Source of the DNA: Alphaproteobacteria bacterium
Lineage (GTDB): Bacteria > Pseudomonadota > Alphaproteobacteria > UBA2136 > UBA6156
Length of the DNA: 42,339 nt
NCBI GenBank assembly: GCA_027483385.1
Contig: JAIXUT010000178.1
Span: forward strand, 1 to 42,339
Reading direction: 5' to 3'
Shown here: positions 2,501-29,103 of the stretch, one piece after another
Numbering within the stretch: position 1 is the stretch's first letter
Layout of the letters: each line of letters begins with the position of its first letter
The notes under the pieces: generated by a model
What the model was told of the DNA's origin: nothing
Databases searched by the model: none
What the model saw: only the letters and a program-made list of their open reading frames with translations
Program-made: the position numbers and the translations under genes

Positions 2501-2619
2501 TGTCATTCAGAGCGTAGCGAAGAATCCAGGTCTTCACAACTTAGAAAGTAGGCTTCGTTTCAATCAACATGCACGCGCTTAATATCACACCTGGGTCCTT
2601 CGCTGCGCTCAGGATGACA
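2501..2619. repeat. MITE-like inverted-repeat element, copy 1
   Basis: About 119 bases bounded by inverted arms. The left arm begins TGTCATTCAGAGCG; the right arm reads, on the other strand, TGTCATCCTGAGCG and ends GGACCCAGG. The inner part contains GGCTTCG and AACATGCACG, shared in the same orientation with the copy at 20932 and inverted in the copy at 19563. It abuts the start of sodB. The right arm is closer to the consensus than the left. Confidence 0.8.
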
Positions 2620-2649
2620 CCCGCGGTGCGGGTGGTGTGGGTGGTATAA

Positions 2650-18239: not shown

Positions 18240-18399
18240 TGTCATCCTGAGAGCGTATATTCTACCGAAGTTTAAAAGCTAAGGGCGAAGGACCCAGTGG
18301 GTTGGTGGTTATGGCACCAGCGGGCTTCGGCAAAATGTGCACTGGATTCTTCGCAGATGGCATCACAGACTTCGGCATCCTGGGTGCTCTCAGGATGAC
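18240..18399. repeat. Inverted-repeat element, longer variant
   Basis: A 160-base fold-back element with outer arms TGTCATCCTGAGAGC and its reverse complement, and inner stretches resembling GAAGGACCCAG. It is flanked by GCGCGG-type complementary bases on both sides. It differs from the other copies by an inserted stretch in each arm. It lies between the convergent mla and DUF1488-like genes and may also end transcription. Confidence 0.65.
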
Positions 18400-19562: not shown

Positions 19563-19683
19563 TGTAATCCTGAGGCTGGCCGAAGGATCCAGGTGTGAAA
19601 TTGCGTACGTGCATGTTGGCTACGGCGAAGCCCATTTACCAATTCAACAAAGACCTGGGTCCTTCGCTGCGCTCAGGATGACA
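19563..19683. repeat. MITE-like inverted-repeat element, copy 2
   Basis: A 121-base element. The right arm reads TGTCATCCTGAGCG on the minus strand; the left arm is degraded (TGTAATCCTGAGGC). The inside carries GTGCATGTTGGC and GGCGAAGCC, the reverse complement of the core seen in the copies at 2501 and 20932, so this copy is in the opposite orientation. It lies between the foreign gene and flgH. Confidence 0.8.
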
Positions 19684-19731
19684 CCGCGCAAAGCGCGGTG
19701 GCCCTCGTTCCTCGCTACCTAGGTCCTATTT

Positions 19732-20473: not shown

Positions 20474-20971
20474 CTAATTTACCAAAACTTGGCCGTTGGT
20501 TTGCACGGTGCCCACCAAGGTGGCCCGTGTGGCGGGGTTGAGCAGCCGAATTTGCTGGCCTGCTGCACCATCTTCTAAGGCCTGCCCCGTGCCTTTGAGG
20601 CTGACCACGCCGCGCTGAATGGTGAAATCGATGACACTGCCCCGATTCACCAACGGCGGCACGCGCAGGTGCAGCGTGGAAAGCGGCACGCCGGCTGCCA
20701 GCGCCCGCGTGGTTTGCAGGCCAATCGCTTGGGCAGGCTGCTGCACGGTGGAGACAAACACCTGCGTGCTGATGACGGTGCGGCTGGTGAGGTCGGCAGT
20801 CTGCACAATCGCGCCCTTCGGCAATGGGGCCGCCAGCACGGGGATGCTGACGGGGGCGGCAGGCGCGGCAAAACTTGACGTAGCAACCATGACCAAACAC
20901 AAACCGCCGTAAGCGCCACGCTGCAGCAGGCTGTCACCCTGAAGCTTGCCGAAGGACCCAGGTCTTTTCAC
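20474..20971 (-). CDS. flgA: Flagellar P-ring chaperone FlgA, repeat-derived N-terminus
   Basis: FlgA is the periplasmic chaperone for P-ring assembly. The C-terminal SAF-like domain is intact: LPKGAIVQTADLTSRTV, RALAAGVPLSTLHLRVPPLV, RGSVIDFTIQRGVVSL and closing TLVGTVQTNGQVLV. At 165 aa it is short, as in some alphaproteobacteria. The N-terminus is odd: the only upstream start is a GTG at 20971, and the first 13 or so residues (KRPGSFGKLQGD) are translated from the left arm of the repeat element at 20932. The hydrophobic stretch GAYGGLCLVMVATSSFA that follows is the real signal peptide core. Confidence 0.85.
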   Translation of the reverse strand: MKRPGSFGKLQGDSLLQRGAYGGLCLVMVATSSFAAPAAPVSIPVLAAPLPKGAIVQTADLTSRTVISTQVFVSTVQQPAQAIGLQTTRALAAGVPLSTLHLRVPPLVNRGSVIDFTIQRGVVSLKGTGQALEDGAAGQQIRLLNPATRATLVGTVQTNGQVLVN

Positions 20972-21054
20972 TGTGTGTGTAAATTGGCTTTGCTGAAGCC
21001 AACATGCCCGTGCGCTACATCATACCTGGGTCCTTCGCTACGCTCAGGATGACA
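20932..21054. repeat. MITE-like inverted-repeat element, copy 3
   Basis: A 123-base element with left arm TGTCACCCTGAAGC and a consensus right arm. The core holds GGCTTTGCTGAAGCC and AACATGCCCGTGCGC. It reaches into the 5' end of flgA by about 40 bases and separates flgA from the 66-codon gene. Confidence 0.85.
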
Positions 21055-21065
21055 CATAGAATCAA

Positions 21066-24077: not shown

Positions 24078-26186
24078 ATGCCCGTTGCGCTTGCTGATTT
24101 AGTGTTTGTGATGACGCCAGATTTGGCCGAGCGGGTGCATGGCTATATAAAAGCGGGGGGTGGCGACTGGAGCACGGAAACACCCTTGGTGCTGGAAGAC
24201 ACCACAGCGCTGCTGAACCATGTGCGGCGGGTGCGCCCTGCCCCGGTGCTGGCGTTGTGGGGGGTGCCGGCCCTTAACCCAAATTTTGAACAAACCCTGC
24301 CCCAATTAACTGCCCACCCAAGCCTGCAAGTGGCCCTGTTGAGCGATAACGAGAATGTGATGCAGACCGCCCAACGGGCGGGCTTGCCACTGGGCTTGAA
24401 CGTGAGTGACCTTTCCCCGCAGCGCCTGACTTCTCTGGTGCGCCTGATGGCCGAATGGCAACATTTAAAAGCCACTCAATGGCAGATGCAGCAACTTTGC
24501 GATGCTGCGGAAGCCCGCTTTCACGATATGGCCGACCTCTGCGCCGACTGGCTCTGGGAAGTTGATGCGAATTTAAACTTGGTATTTAGCAGCAACCGTA
24601 AGCGGCCTTCAGCCACCAGCACCAAGGGCGCCAATTTTACTGGCAGCTTCCTGCCCGAAGAAAAGTTGCGGATTGAAGATGATTTTGCCGAACTGCTACG
24701 TACCCCCAGGCCCTTCCATGACCGTGATTACTGGAGTGCCGACCGCTTCGGCAGCCGCCTGTGCTGGAGCGTGAGCGGTGTGCCCCTGACCGATAGCGCC
24801 GGCAACGTGACTGGCTTTCGGGGTGTGGCGCGGGATATCTCGGGCCAAAAGGCCAATACCGACCAAATCTATTATTTGGTGAACCACGACGCCCTGACCG
24901 GCGTGATGAACCGCCAGCGGTTGCAAGACGAACTGACCCGCACCCTGCGCGCCGCCAAGCGCGAAGCCCGCAGCGGCGTGCTGGTGGTGCTGGATGTTGA
25001 CCGTTTTGCCTATATTAACCAAACCCACGGGCACTTGGTGGGCGATAAATACCTCATCCATCTGGCGCAGGTGCTGAAAGATAACGTCCGCACGGGCGAC
25101 GTGGTGGCGCGGCTGGATGGCGACACCTTTGCCGTGCTGCTGCGCGATGTGCGGGTTGAAGATGTGCCGCCACGATTGGAACGCCTGCAGGCCGCCTTGG
25201 CCGCCCGTCCGCTGCCGACCGAAAACGGTGCTTTAACCATGAATGTTTCGGGCGGCGCCGCCTGTTACCCCAAAGATGCCGAAAGCGCCGATGACCTGCT
25301 GGCCAACGCGATGGATGCATTGGCGCGGGCCAAACAGCGCGGCCCCCGCAAGATTGAAACCTACGACCCGAACTCCACGCAAGAACACGTGGCCGAAGGG
25401 CACCTGGAATATGTGGAGTTGGTGAATGAGTGTTTGGAGGCCAGTGAACAACGCATGGTGCTGTATTATCAGCCGATTGTGCCGTTAAGTGGGCCCGCCA
25501 TTGCCACCCGTACCGAACATTATGAAGTGCTGTTGCGGCTGATTGACCGCGAAGGCGCCATCATTGCCCCGGGGAAATTTATGGCCACTGCCGAGGAATT
25601 TGGCCTGATTGGCAAAATTGACCGCATCGTGACCTTGCGGGCCATCGAGATGTTAAAGTATTGGCATAAGCAGGGCCGCAAGGTGCATTTAAGCGTGAAC
25701 CTTTCGGGCAAAACCTTCGATAATGCCGAGTTTTTGAAGGTGATTAAGGAAGCCATGGCCGCCGCCGCCCTGCCGCCCAAAACCCTGGTGTTTGAAATTA
25801 CCGAAACGGCGCTGTTGCGAGACTTGCAGCAGGTGAAGGCCTTCATGACCGAGCTGCGGGCTTTGGGCGCCGGGTTTGCGCTGGATGACTGCGGCGTTGG
25901 GTACAGCAGCTTTAATTACATCCGGCAGTTGGAACTGGATTTCATTAAAATTGATGGCAGCTTCGTGCGCAACCTGCACCTAAATGGCGATGACCAAGCG
26001 TTTGTGAAAGCCTTGGCCGATGTGGCGAAGCAAAAACAGATTTCCACGGTGGCTGAAATGGTGGAGCACGAGGCGGCGATGACGGCGCTGCAGGGCTTAG
26101 GGATAGATTTTGGCCAGGGGTACTTCTTTGCCCCGCCCCAGCCCGAATTGCCTGCTGAAGGGTGGGATAAGGCGTTTGTACATTAA
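24078..26186 (+). CDS. PAS-GGDEF-EAL protein, likely c-di-GMP phosphodiesterase
   Basis: The 702-aa protein has an N-terminal receiver-like region (~1-130), a PAS-like segment (ADWLWEVDANLNLVFSSNRK to GFRGVARDISGQK, ~155-265), a GGDEF domain (from ~275) and an EAL domain (~455-690). The GGDEF motif reads RLDGDTFAVLL, so it has lost the first Gly and the catalytic Glu. The EAL domain keeps its key residues: EVLLR in place of EALLR, NLSGKTF, FEITET, LDDCGVGYSS, KIDGSF and GQGYFF. It should therefore break down c-di-GMP, with the GGDEF part as a regulatory GTP site. Next to flagellar genes it may tune motility. Confidence 0.93.
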   Translation: MPVALADLVFVMTPDLAERVHGYIKAGGGDWSTETPLVLEDTTALLNHVRRVRPAPVLALWGVPALNPNFEQTLPQLTAHPSLQVALLSDNENVMQTAQRAGLPLGLNVSDLSPQRLTSLVRLMAEWQHLKATQWQMQQLCDAAEARFHDMADLCADWLWEVDANLNLVFSSNRKRPSATSTKGANFTGSFLPEEKLRIEDDFAELLRTPRPFHDRDYWSADRFGSRLCWSVSGVPLTDSAGNVTGFRGVARDISGQKANTDQIYYLVNHDALTGVMNRQRLQDELTRTLRAAKREARSGVLVVLDVDRFAYINQTHGHLVGDKYLIHLAQVLKDNVRTGDVVARLDGDTFAVLLRDVRVEDVPPRLERLQAALAARPLPTENGALTMNVSGGAACYPKDAESADDLLANAMDALARAKQRGPRKIETYDPNSTQEHVAEGHLEYVELVNECLEASEQRMVLYYQPIVPLSGPAIATRTEHYEVLLRLIDREGAIIAPGKFMATAEEFGLIGKIDRIVTLRAIEMLKYWHKQGRKVHLSVNLSGKTFDNAEFLKVIKEAMAAAALPPKTLVFEITETALLRDLQQVKAFMTELRALGAGFALDDCGVGYSSFNYIRQLELDFIKIDGSFVRNLHLNGDDQAFVKALADVAKQKQISTVAEMVEHEAAMTALQGLGIDFGQGYFFAPPQPELPAEGWDKAFVH

Positions 26187-26203
26187 TCAACACACACTAT
26201 TTG

Positions 26204-26559
26204 TGTCATCCTGAGCGAAGCGAAGGACCCAGGTTGTGACTGAAAAAACCTATTTTGTTTACATCATGGCAAGCCGCAAAAATGGAACTATCTATATTGG
26301 TGTAACCAACGATTTACCACGCCGTGCCTTTGAACACTTTACTGGCCAAATAGCTGGATTTACGCGCAAGTATAAAGTTAAATATTTAGTTTTTTATGAA
26401 TCATTTCGTGAAATTGAGCAAGCGATTGCCCGCGAAAAGTACTTGAAGGGCCTAATGAGAGAAAAGAAATTGGCGCTGATTGAAGATAAAAAACCACTGT
26501 GGCTGGATTTACGCCCCTCTCTCTAAAGACCTGGGTCCTTCGCTACGCTCAGGATGACA
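26204..26559. mobile_element. Inverted-repeat element carrying a GIY-YIG gene
   Basis: Two 30-base arms, 29/30 identical as inverted copies, lie at 26204-26233 and 26530-26559. Only one ORF fits between them, starting 2 bases after the left arm and stopping 3 bases before the right arm. The arms are the consensus of the MITE-like family elsewhere in the window. The left arm supplies the AAGGA ribosome-binding site of the gene. The compact build suggests that the nuclease gene and repeat form one unit, though no target-site duplication was seen. Confidence 0.7.
26236..26526 (+). CDS. GIY-YIG nuclease, UPF0213 type
   Basis: A 96-aa single-domain nuclease of the small UPF0213 type. The GIY-YIG signature is visible as YFVYIM and TIYIGVTNDLPRRAFEH, followed by FYESFREIEQAIAREKYLKG, which includes the conserved Glu. 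Family members are single-strand or structure-specific endonucleases; most are uncharacterised. The start is a GTG at 26236; the next in-frame ATG would cut the domain. The AAGGA at 26223-26227 lies inside the left inverted-repeat arm, 8 bases before the GTG. The gene is richer in A+T than neighbours, which supports transfer. See the element 26204-26559. Confidence 0.88.
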   Translation: MTEKTYFVYIMASRKNGTIYIGVTNDLPRRAFEHFTGQIAGFTRKYKVKYLVFYESFREIEQAIAREKYLKGLMREKKLALIEDKKPLWLDLRPSL

Positions 26560-26562
26560 CCC

Positions 26563-26784: not shown

Positions 26785-29103
26785 ATGTTTACAATTTACA
26801 AAAAAACCATCGAGTGGGGCGGCAAGCCCCTCACCATCGAAACCGGCAAAATGGCCCGTCAGGCCGATGGCGCGGTGGTGGTGACCTACGGCGAAACCAT
26901 GGTGCTGGGCACCTGCGTGTTTGCCAAAGAACCCAAAGCGGGCGTGGATTTCTTCCCCCTGACTGTGAACTACATGGAAAAGTTTTACGCCGGCGGGCGC
27001 ATCCCCGGCGGCTTTAAAAAGCGCGAAGGCCAGCCGGGCGAGCGTGAAACGCTGGTCAGCCGCCTGATTGACCGCCCCATCCGCCCCCTCTTCCCGAAAG
27101 GTTTCAAGCACGAAGTGCAGGTGGTGACCACCGTGCTGCAGTACGATAAGGAAAACGAAGCCGATATCGCCGCGATGGTGGCCGCTTCGGCCGCACTGGC
27201 ACTTTCGGGCGTGCCGTTTACCGCCCCGATTGCCGCCGCGCGCGTGGGCCTGATTGACAACACCCTGGTGCTGAACCCGACTGTCTCCGAGCAAGCGGGC
27301 AGCCTGCTCGATTTGGTTGTCGCTGGGACCGCTGAAGGCGTGCTGATGGTGGAAAGTGAAGCCAAGGAATTGCCTGAAGAGGTAATGCTGGAAGCCGTGA
27401 TGTTCGGCCATGCCCGCATGCAGAAAGTGATTGCCGCAATTGAAGAGCTCAAGGCTGCCGCTGGCAAGCCTGCCTTTGTGATGCCCGCGGCTGAAGATAC
27501 CACCGATTTGGAAAAGAAATTGGTTAAAGAGTATGCCGATGGCATCGTGGCCGCCTACAAGATTGCCGACAAGCAAGCCCGCGTTTCGGCCCTCAAAGCC
27601 GTGCGTGAAGCTGCCGTGGCGGCCCATGCGGGTGAAGGCGAAAGCAAAGATGCCAGCAAGGCCGACAAAGTGGCCAAGCTGATTAAGGGCATGGAAGCCG
27701 ATGTGTTGCGCCTGGATGTCTTAAAAAAGAAAACCCGTATCGATGGCCGCGCCACCGACCAGGTGCGCCCGATTGTGGCGGAAATTGATGTGCTGCCTCG
27801 CACCCACGGCAGCGCCCTGTTTACTCGCGGCGAAACGCAGGCGCTGGTGGTGACCACGCTGGGCACGGGCAAAGATGACCAAATCATCGACGTCATGGAA
27901 GGCGAGAGCAAGCAGGCGTTTTTGCTGCACTACAACTTTCCCGCCTTCAGTGTGGGGGAAACGGGCCGCATGGGCGCGCCGGGGCGGCGTGAAATTGGCC
28001 ACGGCAAGTTGGCCTGGCGGGCAATTAACCCCCTGATGCCAACCAAGGAACAATTCCCGTACGTCATTCGGGTGGTGAGCGAAATTCTGGAAAGCAACGG
28101 CAGCAGCTCCATGGCCACTGTGTGCGGTACTTCCATGGCGCTCATGGCCGCAGGTGTGCCGTTGGCACGCCCTGTGGCCGGGATTGCCATGGGCCTGGTG
28201 AAAGAAGGCGCCGACTACGTGGTATTAAGCGATATCATGGGCGACGAAGACCACCTCGGCGACATGGATTTTAAAGTTGCGGGTTCAGCCGAAGGCATCA
28301 CGGCCTTGCAGATGGACCTTAAAATTACCAGCGTCACCAAGGCCATCATGGAAGAAGCCCTGGCCCAAGCCATGCACGGCCGCCTGCACATCCTGGGCAA
28401 GATGGCCAAAGCGATTACCGAGGCCAAGACCGAGATTTCGGACTTCGCCCCCGCCATGGAAACCACCAGCATCCCCAAAGAAGAAATTCGGGTGCTGATT
28501 GGCAAGGGCGGCGAGACCATTCGCGGCCTGTGCGAGACCTTCAACAGCACGATTGATGTGGATGATGAAGGCAAGGTGACGATTGCCAGCACCGACCGCG
28601 TGCAGTTGAAGGCCCTGCTGGCCAAAATTGACGGCATGTTTGCCAAGCCCGAAATTGGCGGGCTGTACGCCGGTACCGTGCTGAACACCACCGATTTTGG
28701 CGCGTTTGTTAGCTTCATGGATGGCAAGGAAGGCCTGGTGCACGTATCGGAAGTGGTGCCCGTGCGCTTGGGCCACATTACCGATGTGCTGCAAACGGGC
28801 GACGCCGTGAGCATTAAGGTCGTGGAAACCGATGACCGCGGCAAAATCCGCCTGACCATCAAGGAAATTGCGCAAACGGGCGCCGTGGCCGAACGGATTG
28901 CTGCCGTGACCGCCAGCGGTGGGACGCAGCGCAAGCCGCGCGAAGAAGGTGAAGGTGGTACCGATGAGAACCGTGGGAACCGTGATGGCGGCGACCGTGG
29001 TAACCGTGGGCCACGCCGTGAAGGCGGCGGCGGCGGTGACCGTAACCGTGGCCCGCGCCGCGAAGGTGGTGGCGGGGAACGCCGCCCCAAGCGCGATGCT
29101 TAA
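26785..29103 (+). CDS. pnp: Polyribonucleotide nucleotidyltransferase
   Basis: PNPase degrades RNA from the 3' end using phosphate and is part of the degradosome. The 772-aa protein has two RNase PH domains (residues ~1-230 and ~310-550) with FYAGGRIPGGFKKREG and GRREIGHGKLAWRA, then a KH domain (IRVLIGKGGETIRGLCE) and an S1 domain (GLYAGTVLNTTDFGAFVSFM). The C-terminal tail of about 55 residues is Gly/Arg-rich (RGNRGPRREGGGGGDRNRG), longer than usual for alphaproteobacteria and likely to bind RNA or partner proteins. Start and ribosome-binding site are clear. Confidence 0.98.
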   Translation: MFTIYKKTIEWGGKPLTIETGKMARQADGAVVVTYGETMVLGTCVFAKEPKAGVDFFPLTVNYMEKFYAGGRIPGGFKKREGQPGERETLVSRLIDRPIRPLFPKGFKHEVQVVTTVLQYDKENEADIAAMVAASAALALSGVPFTAPIAAARVGLIDNTLVLNPTVSEQAGSLLDLVVAGTAEGVLMVESEAKELPEEVMLEAVMFGHARMQKVIAAIEELKAAAGKPAFVMPAAEDTTDLEKKLVKEYADGIVAAYKIADKQARVSALKAVREAAVAAHAGEGESKDASKADKVAKLIKGMEADVLRLDVLKKKTRIDGRATDQVRPIVAEIDVLPRTHGSALFTRGETQALVVTTLGTGKDDQIIDVMEGESKQAFLLHYNFPAFSVGETGRMGAPGRREIGHGKLAWRAINPLMPTKEQFPYVIRVVSEILESNGSSSMATVCGTSMALMAAGVPLARPVAGIAMGLVKEGADYVVLSDIMGDEDHLGDMDFKVAGSAEGITALQMDLKITSVTKAIMEEALAQAMHGRLHILGKMAKAITEAKTEISDFAPAMETTSIPKEEIRVLIGKGGETIRGLCETFNSTIDVDDEGKVTIASTDRVQLKALLAKIDGMFAKPEIGGLYAGTVLNTTDFGAFVSFMDGKEGLVHVSEVVPVRLGHITDVLQTGDAVSIKVVETDDRGKIRLTIKEIAQTGAVAERIAAVTASGGTQRKPREEGEGGTDENRGNRDGGDRGNRGPRREGGGGGDRNRGPRREGGGGERRPKRDA

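Follow-up and report, generated by a model that had tools for sequence, protein, structure and literature searches.

Two described systems lie close to the element reported here. CGTC-tagged REPs are repeats with a terminal CGTC or TGTC, a stem of 8-9 bp starting with AT, a loop of 4-5 nt and a CCA tail; they form head-to-head dimers, occur mostly in Alphaproteobacteria and include dRS3 of Neisseria and RPE-4 and RPE-6 of Rickettsia, and no dedicated transposase was found for them (Di Nocera et al. 2013, PMC3733652). REPtrons associate REP, BIME or REPIN repeats with TnpA_REP (RAYT) enzymes, for which there is about one gene per REP type (PMC6006769).

We studied a small gene enclosed by inverted repeats in a window (the whole stretch of DNA analyzed) of 42,339 nucleotides, contig JAIXUT010000178.1 of an alphaproteobacterial genome. 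An earlier note had read it as a GIY-YIG nuclease gene filling an inverted-repeat element, possibly REPtron-like. The features of the element and its neighbours are the following:

26203..26234, + strand: left arm, a GTC-tagged REP-like repeat, GTGTCATCCTGAGCGAAGCGAAGGACCCAGGT, with 34 related copies in the genome and the YGTC tag, AT-initial stem and CCCAG tail as in CGTC REPs
26529..26560, - strand: right arm, an inverted copy of the left one, 31/32 identical in the arm alignment
26236..26526, + strand: GIY-YIG nuclease gene, 96 aa, GTG start, assigned by Pfam match, an alignment of 27 relatives and an AlphaFold2 model
26223..26227, + strand: AAGGA within the left arm, 8 nt 5' of the GTG, a possible Shine-Dalgarno sequence, local only and not conserved in relatives
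24078..26186, + strand: left neighbour, a GGDEF-EAL protein gene, which adjoins pnp without the element in genomes G001 and G003
26785..29103, + strand: right neighbour, pnp, polynucleotide phosphorylase

As the earlier note had it, the arms are inverted and nearly identical (32 nt each, 31/32 complementary, spaced 294 nt apart) and the ORF fills the space between them; 1 base separates the left arm from the GTG and 2 bases separate the stop codon from the right arm. Its identification of the product also held: the ORF at 26236-26526 matched PF01541 (GIY-YIG) with 56.8 bits over a cut-off of 22.6, its sole Pfam match, and no NCBIfam profile matched the protein above cut-off. The active-site Tyr, Tyr, Gly, Arg and Glu are present and invariant across the 27 aligned relatives, in which residues Y9, Y20, G22, R30, H34 and E67 were invariant or nearly so. 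The AlphaFold2 model (pLDDT 89.6) consisted of a bare single GIY-YIG domain, and the nearest solved structures were UPF0213 BH0048 and Slx1. Defence-system models gave only weak matches, and a phage origin of the nuclease was rejected, the phage matches being two, both distant. The proposal that the arm serves as ribosome-binding site fared less well: AAGGA does precede the GTG at the distance claimed, but the gap between arm and start codon varied from 0 to ~130 nt in relatives and most of their arms had no Shine-Dalgarno-like stretch. The ribosome-binding role of the arm is a local coincidence.

Inspection of the arms of relatives revealed a usual anatomy of YGTC-AT-palindrome-CCA(G), e.g., TGTCATTCCCGCGAAAGCGGGAATCCAG. 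The base outside GTC was C or T in 91 of 94 ends, the tags faced outward in 48 of 63 two-sided cases, and head-to-head dimers predominated, as in the CGTC-tagged REP superfamily. Most relatives had a stem of 8-9 bp and a loop of 4-5 nt. The window arm shares the terminus (its tag is TGTC), the AT that opens the stem (GTC-AT...) and a CCCAG tail that fits CCA. Inside the outermost AT, which has C, not T, opposite its A, comes a TCCT...AGGA pairing. The stem comprises 4+2 bp and two G.A mismatches, and the loop 3 nt. A strong single-strand hairpin was unsupported for this arm (-2.2 kcal/mol, no better than shuffles). We conclude that the window arm is an aberrant member of the CGTC-tagged REPs, its stem interrupted by the two mismatches.

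The arm core was found five times in the window and never in shuffles of it, and 34 times (up to 3 mismatches) in the genome to which the window belongs (G000; 1.94 Mb in 233 contigs, 89% complete), where the reversed control gave 0; these controls exclude a chance origin of the matches. Most of the 34 matches form inverted pairs 50-110 bp apart. The arm pairs lacking the nuclease ORF within the window were:

2501..2620, unstranded: ORF-less head-to-head dimer with a left arm, GTCATTCAGAGCGTAGCGAAGAATCCAG, of the type of a second GIY unit (locus L003) and a right arm of the window type
19569..19684, unstranded: ORF-less head-to-head dimer, one arm diverged
20932..21055, unstranded: ORF-less head-to-head dimer, one arm diverged
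18241..18399, unstranded: decayed arm pair, GTCATCCTGAGAGC ... GCTCTCAGGATGAC

Thus ORF-less copies do exist nearby, as had been claimed, but they are not bounded by two equal arms: each of the three dimers combines a canonical arm with a diverged relative, and the remaining pair is decayed. The dimers of ~110 bp (19569-19684 in the window; L026, L028, L029 and L031) have a common conserved spacer, GCACGTGCATGTTGGC... / ...ACATGCACGCGC, and are a MITE-like subfamily with no obvious derivation from the GIY unit. Three more short GIY-YIG genes were present in the same genome: one fills an element that has other arms (GTGTCATTCAGAGCGTAGCGAAGAATCCAGG...), another lies between GTCATTGCGAG-type arms, and the third has a repeat pair on its downstream side only. 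Elsewhere in this genome (C190:1145-1561, locus L011), a window-type arm pair surrounds a different small ORF of 93 aa, hydrophobic and with no Pfam match, possibly cargo replacing the nuclease.

We then compared 80 loci of relatives, 78 of them usable, collected by protein similarity and not by arms. They belonged to Pseudomonadota, Desulfobacterota/Myxococcota, Bacteroidota, Chloroflexota, Nitrospirota, Nitrospinota, Omnitrophota, Armatimonadota, Planctomycetota, Verrucomicrobiota, Ignavibacteriota and several candidate-radiation phyla. A gene was considered flanked when the 150 bp before it and the 150 bp after it gave an inverted match score of at least 16. Matched inverted arms flanked 57 of the 78 relatives (73%) versus 25 of 804 other genes in the same loci (3.1%; Fisher OR 85, p=7e-52), so that the association of arms with GIY-YIG genes elsewhere, on which the earlier note had staked its reading, was borne out. 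Only 6 of 213 small control genes in these loci were flanked. The arm-flanked relatives were spread over more than a dozen phylum-level lineages, and about a quarter of the relatives were without matched arms. When loci from whole genomes were added, 99 of 141 close relatives were flanked versus 1 of 15 distant GIY-YIG proteins. In 9 of 41 loci, the contig held further copies of the locus's own arm, compared with 2.9% expected from the arms of other loci. A tree of the family had too few columns for firm clades; on it, arm presence was mildly clustered (39 changes vs 48.8 in shuffles).

Some of these loci presented additional peculiarities. The units in L160, L073 and L128 sit in the middle of another palindrome: the flanks outside the tag are inverted relative to each other, as though terminator hairpins had been the insertion sites. 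Records of several Sphingobium plasmids (e.g., AP027312.1 94116-94355) label the nuclease 'excinuclease ABC subunit C' and call its start late. A second GIY-YIG clade, distant from the first (45-60 bits), was found between arms that belong to a different palindrome family, TCATCCTGAG...TCGAAGGATGA (L251, L252, L254, L255, L139, L271 and others), and 13 of its 28 loci passed the same inverted-arm test. The window arm and the palindromes of the second clade have a TCATCCTGAG...CGAAGGA core in common.

Empty sites were found in close relatives. In two other species of the genus (G001 and G003; pnp 86% and 85% identical), the GGDEF-EAL gene immediately precedes pnp, and both nuclease and arms are missing; contrary to what would speak against the earlier note, the gene was thus not kept in place without its arms. 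Matches to the arm family numbered 34 in the genome of the window versus 4, 0 and 4 in three other genomes of the genus. Therefore, gene, arms and family expansion go together in the lineage of the window. In Azospirillum lipoferum 4B, a GIY gene between two REP dimers separates sufB from sufC, a spacer that in A. ramasamyi, A. oryzae and strain B510 measures 87-129 bp and has no repeat of the A. lipoferum 4B type, with flanks ~96% identical. Note that the site by the suf genes (L068, L151, L222) is occupied in various Azospirillum-like genomes by GIY units whose DNA cannot be aligned, and is without a GIY unit in others; this intergenic site is an insertion hot spot. A third case is the space between fnrL and a response regulator gene in Sphingobium: strains TomMM7A, TomMM15 and TomTYG46 have arms and GIY gene, TomTYG72 has neither, and TomTYG64 and TomTYG74 have one bare palindrome (CGTCACCCCGGGTCAAGCCCGGGGTGACG in TomTYG64). 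Such single palindromes, seen in L226 and L228, are tagged at both ends (CGTC...GACG) and correspond to what a hairpin-mediated collapse of two arms into one would leave; from the sequences, either insertion or collapse may account for the difference between the strains. An ORF-less dimer with the arm type of the Sphingobium unit was present in TomMM7A and TomTYG64 and absent from TomTYG46. The flanks of the empty sites have diverged and the integration points are not base-exact. Among several units in different surroundings, DNA homology covered ORF and arms and ended at the outer arm edges. None of 47 units had a target-site duplication of at least 4 bp, and insertion of the DDE type was rejected on this ground. 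Plasmids of Rhizobium tumorigenes and CIAT894 were also considered and discarded, as they offered no clean empty site.

At the genome level, we searched 289 alphaproteobacterial genomes for the REP pattern GTCATNCCN(8-22)GGNATCCA, taking those with at least 3 occurrences as REP-rich. The REP-rich genomes tended to carry the gene: this class comprised 50 of 82 genomes with the GIY gene versus 25 of 207 without it (OR 11.4, p=2e-16; Mantel-Haenszel OR stratified by size 8.6), in a sample of genomes related by descent in which only size was controlled. A joint model including genome size gave a coefficient of 2.2 (1.6-2.9) for the GIY gene and 0.05 (-0.76 to 0.84) for Y1 transposases. Moreover, Y1_Tnp (PF01797) had no match in the whole genome of the window, at 89% completeness. 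A RAYT as driver was rejected both for this genome and by the regression. Genomes rich in REPs and devoid of the GIY gene do exist (G292 with 140 copies, G283 with 75 and G110 with 49); the gene is therefore not needed for REP persistence. Conversely, 21 genomes had the gene and no match to the REP pattern, among them that of the window, whose arms do not fit the pattern.

Different genes within one genome had different repeats. One alphaproteobacterial genome (G139) had eleven such GIY genes, and most of those examined were surrounded by palindromes of different types; read by eye, the arm types also differed among the window, L003 and L005 genes of the window's genome and among most of the G139 genes. 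A recent burst of near-identical units in one genome was looked for and not found, the G139 genes being mutually unalignable by blastn at the threshold used. Arm similarity rose with protein identity, from 0.30 at 45-55% to 0.44 at 65-75% and 0.75 above 75%. This correlation is weak (rho 0.165, permutation p 0.002), and its direction is that expected of recognition or co-inheritance.

We favour, as the probable reading, a small mobile REPtron-like unit in which two head-to-head GTC-tagged REPs enclose their own GIY-YIG nuclease gene, which replaces the Y1/HUH transposase (RAYT, TnpA_REP). The ORF-less head-to-head dimers of the arm family are best explained as non-autonomous, REPIN/MITE-like derivatives of this unit. 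In the mechanism that we propose, the nuclease would cut the repeats and the cutting would drive their spread. The palindrome recognised would be the protein's own YGTC-tagged one, in the form of an extruded hairpin or cruciform or as a single strand during replication, and the nick would fall at its foot; host repair or replication might then copy, move or collapse the unit. GIY-YIG enzymes cleave DNA by hydrolysis, and none is known to rejoin it, for which reason the joining step is assigned to host enzymes, unlike that of TnpA_REP.

The strongest alternative, which we hold to be unlikely, is that the gene is a passenger: REP dimers would be spread by something else, and the GIY gene would lodge between or beside them, REPs being tolerated insertion sites. 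The REP-rich genomes without the gene are compatible with it, as is the 93-aa ORF without Pfam match that lies between arms at C190:1145-1561, and REPs have been described as IS targets (PMC1525189). However, the unit contains no other enzyme, the REP association does not run through Y1 transposases, and the empty sites in the genus are without arms as well as gene. Neither other GIY-YIG genes nor other small genes are placed in this way, which is limited to this clade and to the second one with its different repeat type.

Those arm-free empty sites also bear on a second and less probable reading, namely that the nuclease is a homing-like selfish gene that cuts gene-less REP dimers and is copied into them by recombination on the arms, spreading itself and not the REPs: no resident dimer is there to be cut. 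The protein has no DNA-binding domain beyond its 96-aa catalytic domain, and the G139 copies are old, divergent and of different arm types, not one gene copied into many dimers. On the other side, GIY-YIG is a classical homing-endonuclease fold, the gene stands in place of the spacer of a head-to-head dimer, and several units unalignable at the DNA level share one intergenic site in different Azospirillum-like genomes.

The resemblance of the fold to UPF0213 and to Slx1, a branched-DNA nuclease, would suit a house-keeping enzyme that processes REP hairpins or cruciforms, or their transcripts, averting blocked replication or expression, and that is kept adjacent for this reason, mobility being incidental. 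We consider this very unlikely, since a patchy distribution, several diverged copies in one genome and recurrent gain and loss suit a mobile element better. Finally, chance or ascertainment, i.e., small genes that happen to fall between common REPs, is refuted by the controls even though the initial queries were proteins of a genome in which arms flank most such genes: the loci were found by protein, the contrast of 73% with 3.1% arose within the same DNA (p=7e-52), and the genome-level count is independent of flanks.

Returning to the mobile unit with its own nuclease, this GIY-YIG enzyme is the best candidate yet for what spreads CGTC-tagged REPs. A broader proposal, which we advance tentatively and with less assurance than the unit itself, is that GIY-YIG nucleases constitute a second, independent class of REP mobilisers: one clade would drive CGTC-tagged REPs across bacteria and a sister clade the TCATCCTGAG...TCGAAGGATGA palindromes, both moving short hairpins without a transposase, by nicking and host repair. 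What mobilises the CGTC-tagged REPs, scattered over many phyla, was the question left by Di Nocera et al. (2013); there is now one named gene family to test for this role, together with the repeats matched to it, empty sites and clades that serve as negative controls. If the reading of a mobile unit with its own nuclease is right, bacterial REPs have been mobilised at least twice, by unrelated enzymes; a function would be assigned to many entries named 'GIY-YIG nuclease family protein', some of them mislabelled excinuclease ABC subunit C; and a structure-directed nuclease of very small size, along with its short matched hairpins, would become available for study. Our search found no paper linking GIY-YIG proteins and REPs; preprints and most subscription journals lay outside it, and prior notice elsewhere is possible.

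Compared with known systems, the arms resemble CGTC-tagged REPs in the YGTC tag, the AT-initial stem, the short loop, the CCA tail, the head-to-head dimers and the preference for Alphaproteobacteria. They differ in being tied to a specific GIY-YIG gene, whereas CGTC-tagged REPs were described without a dedicated transposase, and, in the window, in their interrupted stem with two G.A mismatches. The protein shares fold and catalytic residues with UPF0213/YhbQ-type GIY-YIG proteins (PDB 1ZG2, 1YWL) and with Slx1, which cuts branched DNA; in contrast, no repeat association was found for these in the literature searched, and most of the distant GIY-YIG genes tested here were not arm-flanked. Like MITEs and insertion sequences with terminal inverted repeats, the unit has inverted ends and occurs in ORF-bearing and ORF-less versions, but it contains no DDE or Y1 transposase and shows no target-site duplication, and each of its ends is a palindrome in its own right. 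Free-standing GIY-YIG homing endonucleases (I-TevI, F-Tev type) have the same catalytic domain and a similarly selfish-looking distribution; unlike them, the unit has no separate DNA-binding region and occupies varied intergenic sites between REPs, not an intron or a place beside a fixed target gene.

The analogy with REP/RAYT pairs drawn in the earlier note extends to the architecture, to the copy-number association and to the different arm types around several genes of one genome. As in REPtrons, a small single-protein gene is flanked by inverted REP-type palindromes that recur in many copies, mostly as inverted, head-to-head dimers without ORF, and the distribution is patchy; several genes of one genome have different repeat types in the cases read by eye. 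The Y1 HUH enzyme and the GTAG foot of REPtrons are absent. In their place there are a GIY-YIG nuclease of 96 aa, whose fold and chemistry are unrelated to those of Y1/HUH and for which no covalent tyrosine intermediate is expected, and a YGTC tag; and, unlike what has been stated for REPtrons (PMC6006769), gene and repeats are here gained or lost as a block.
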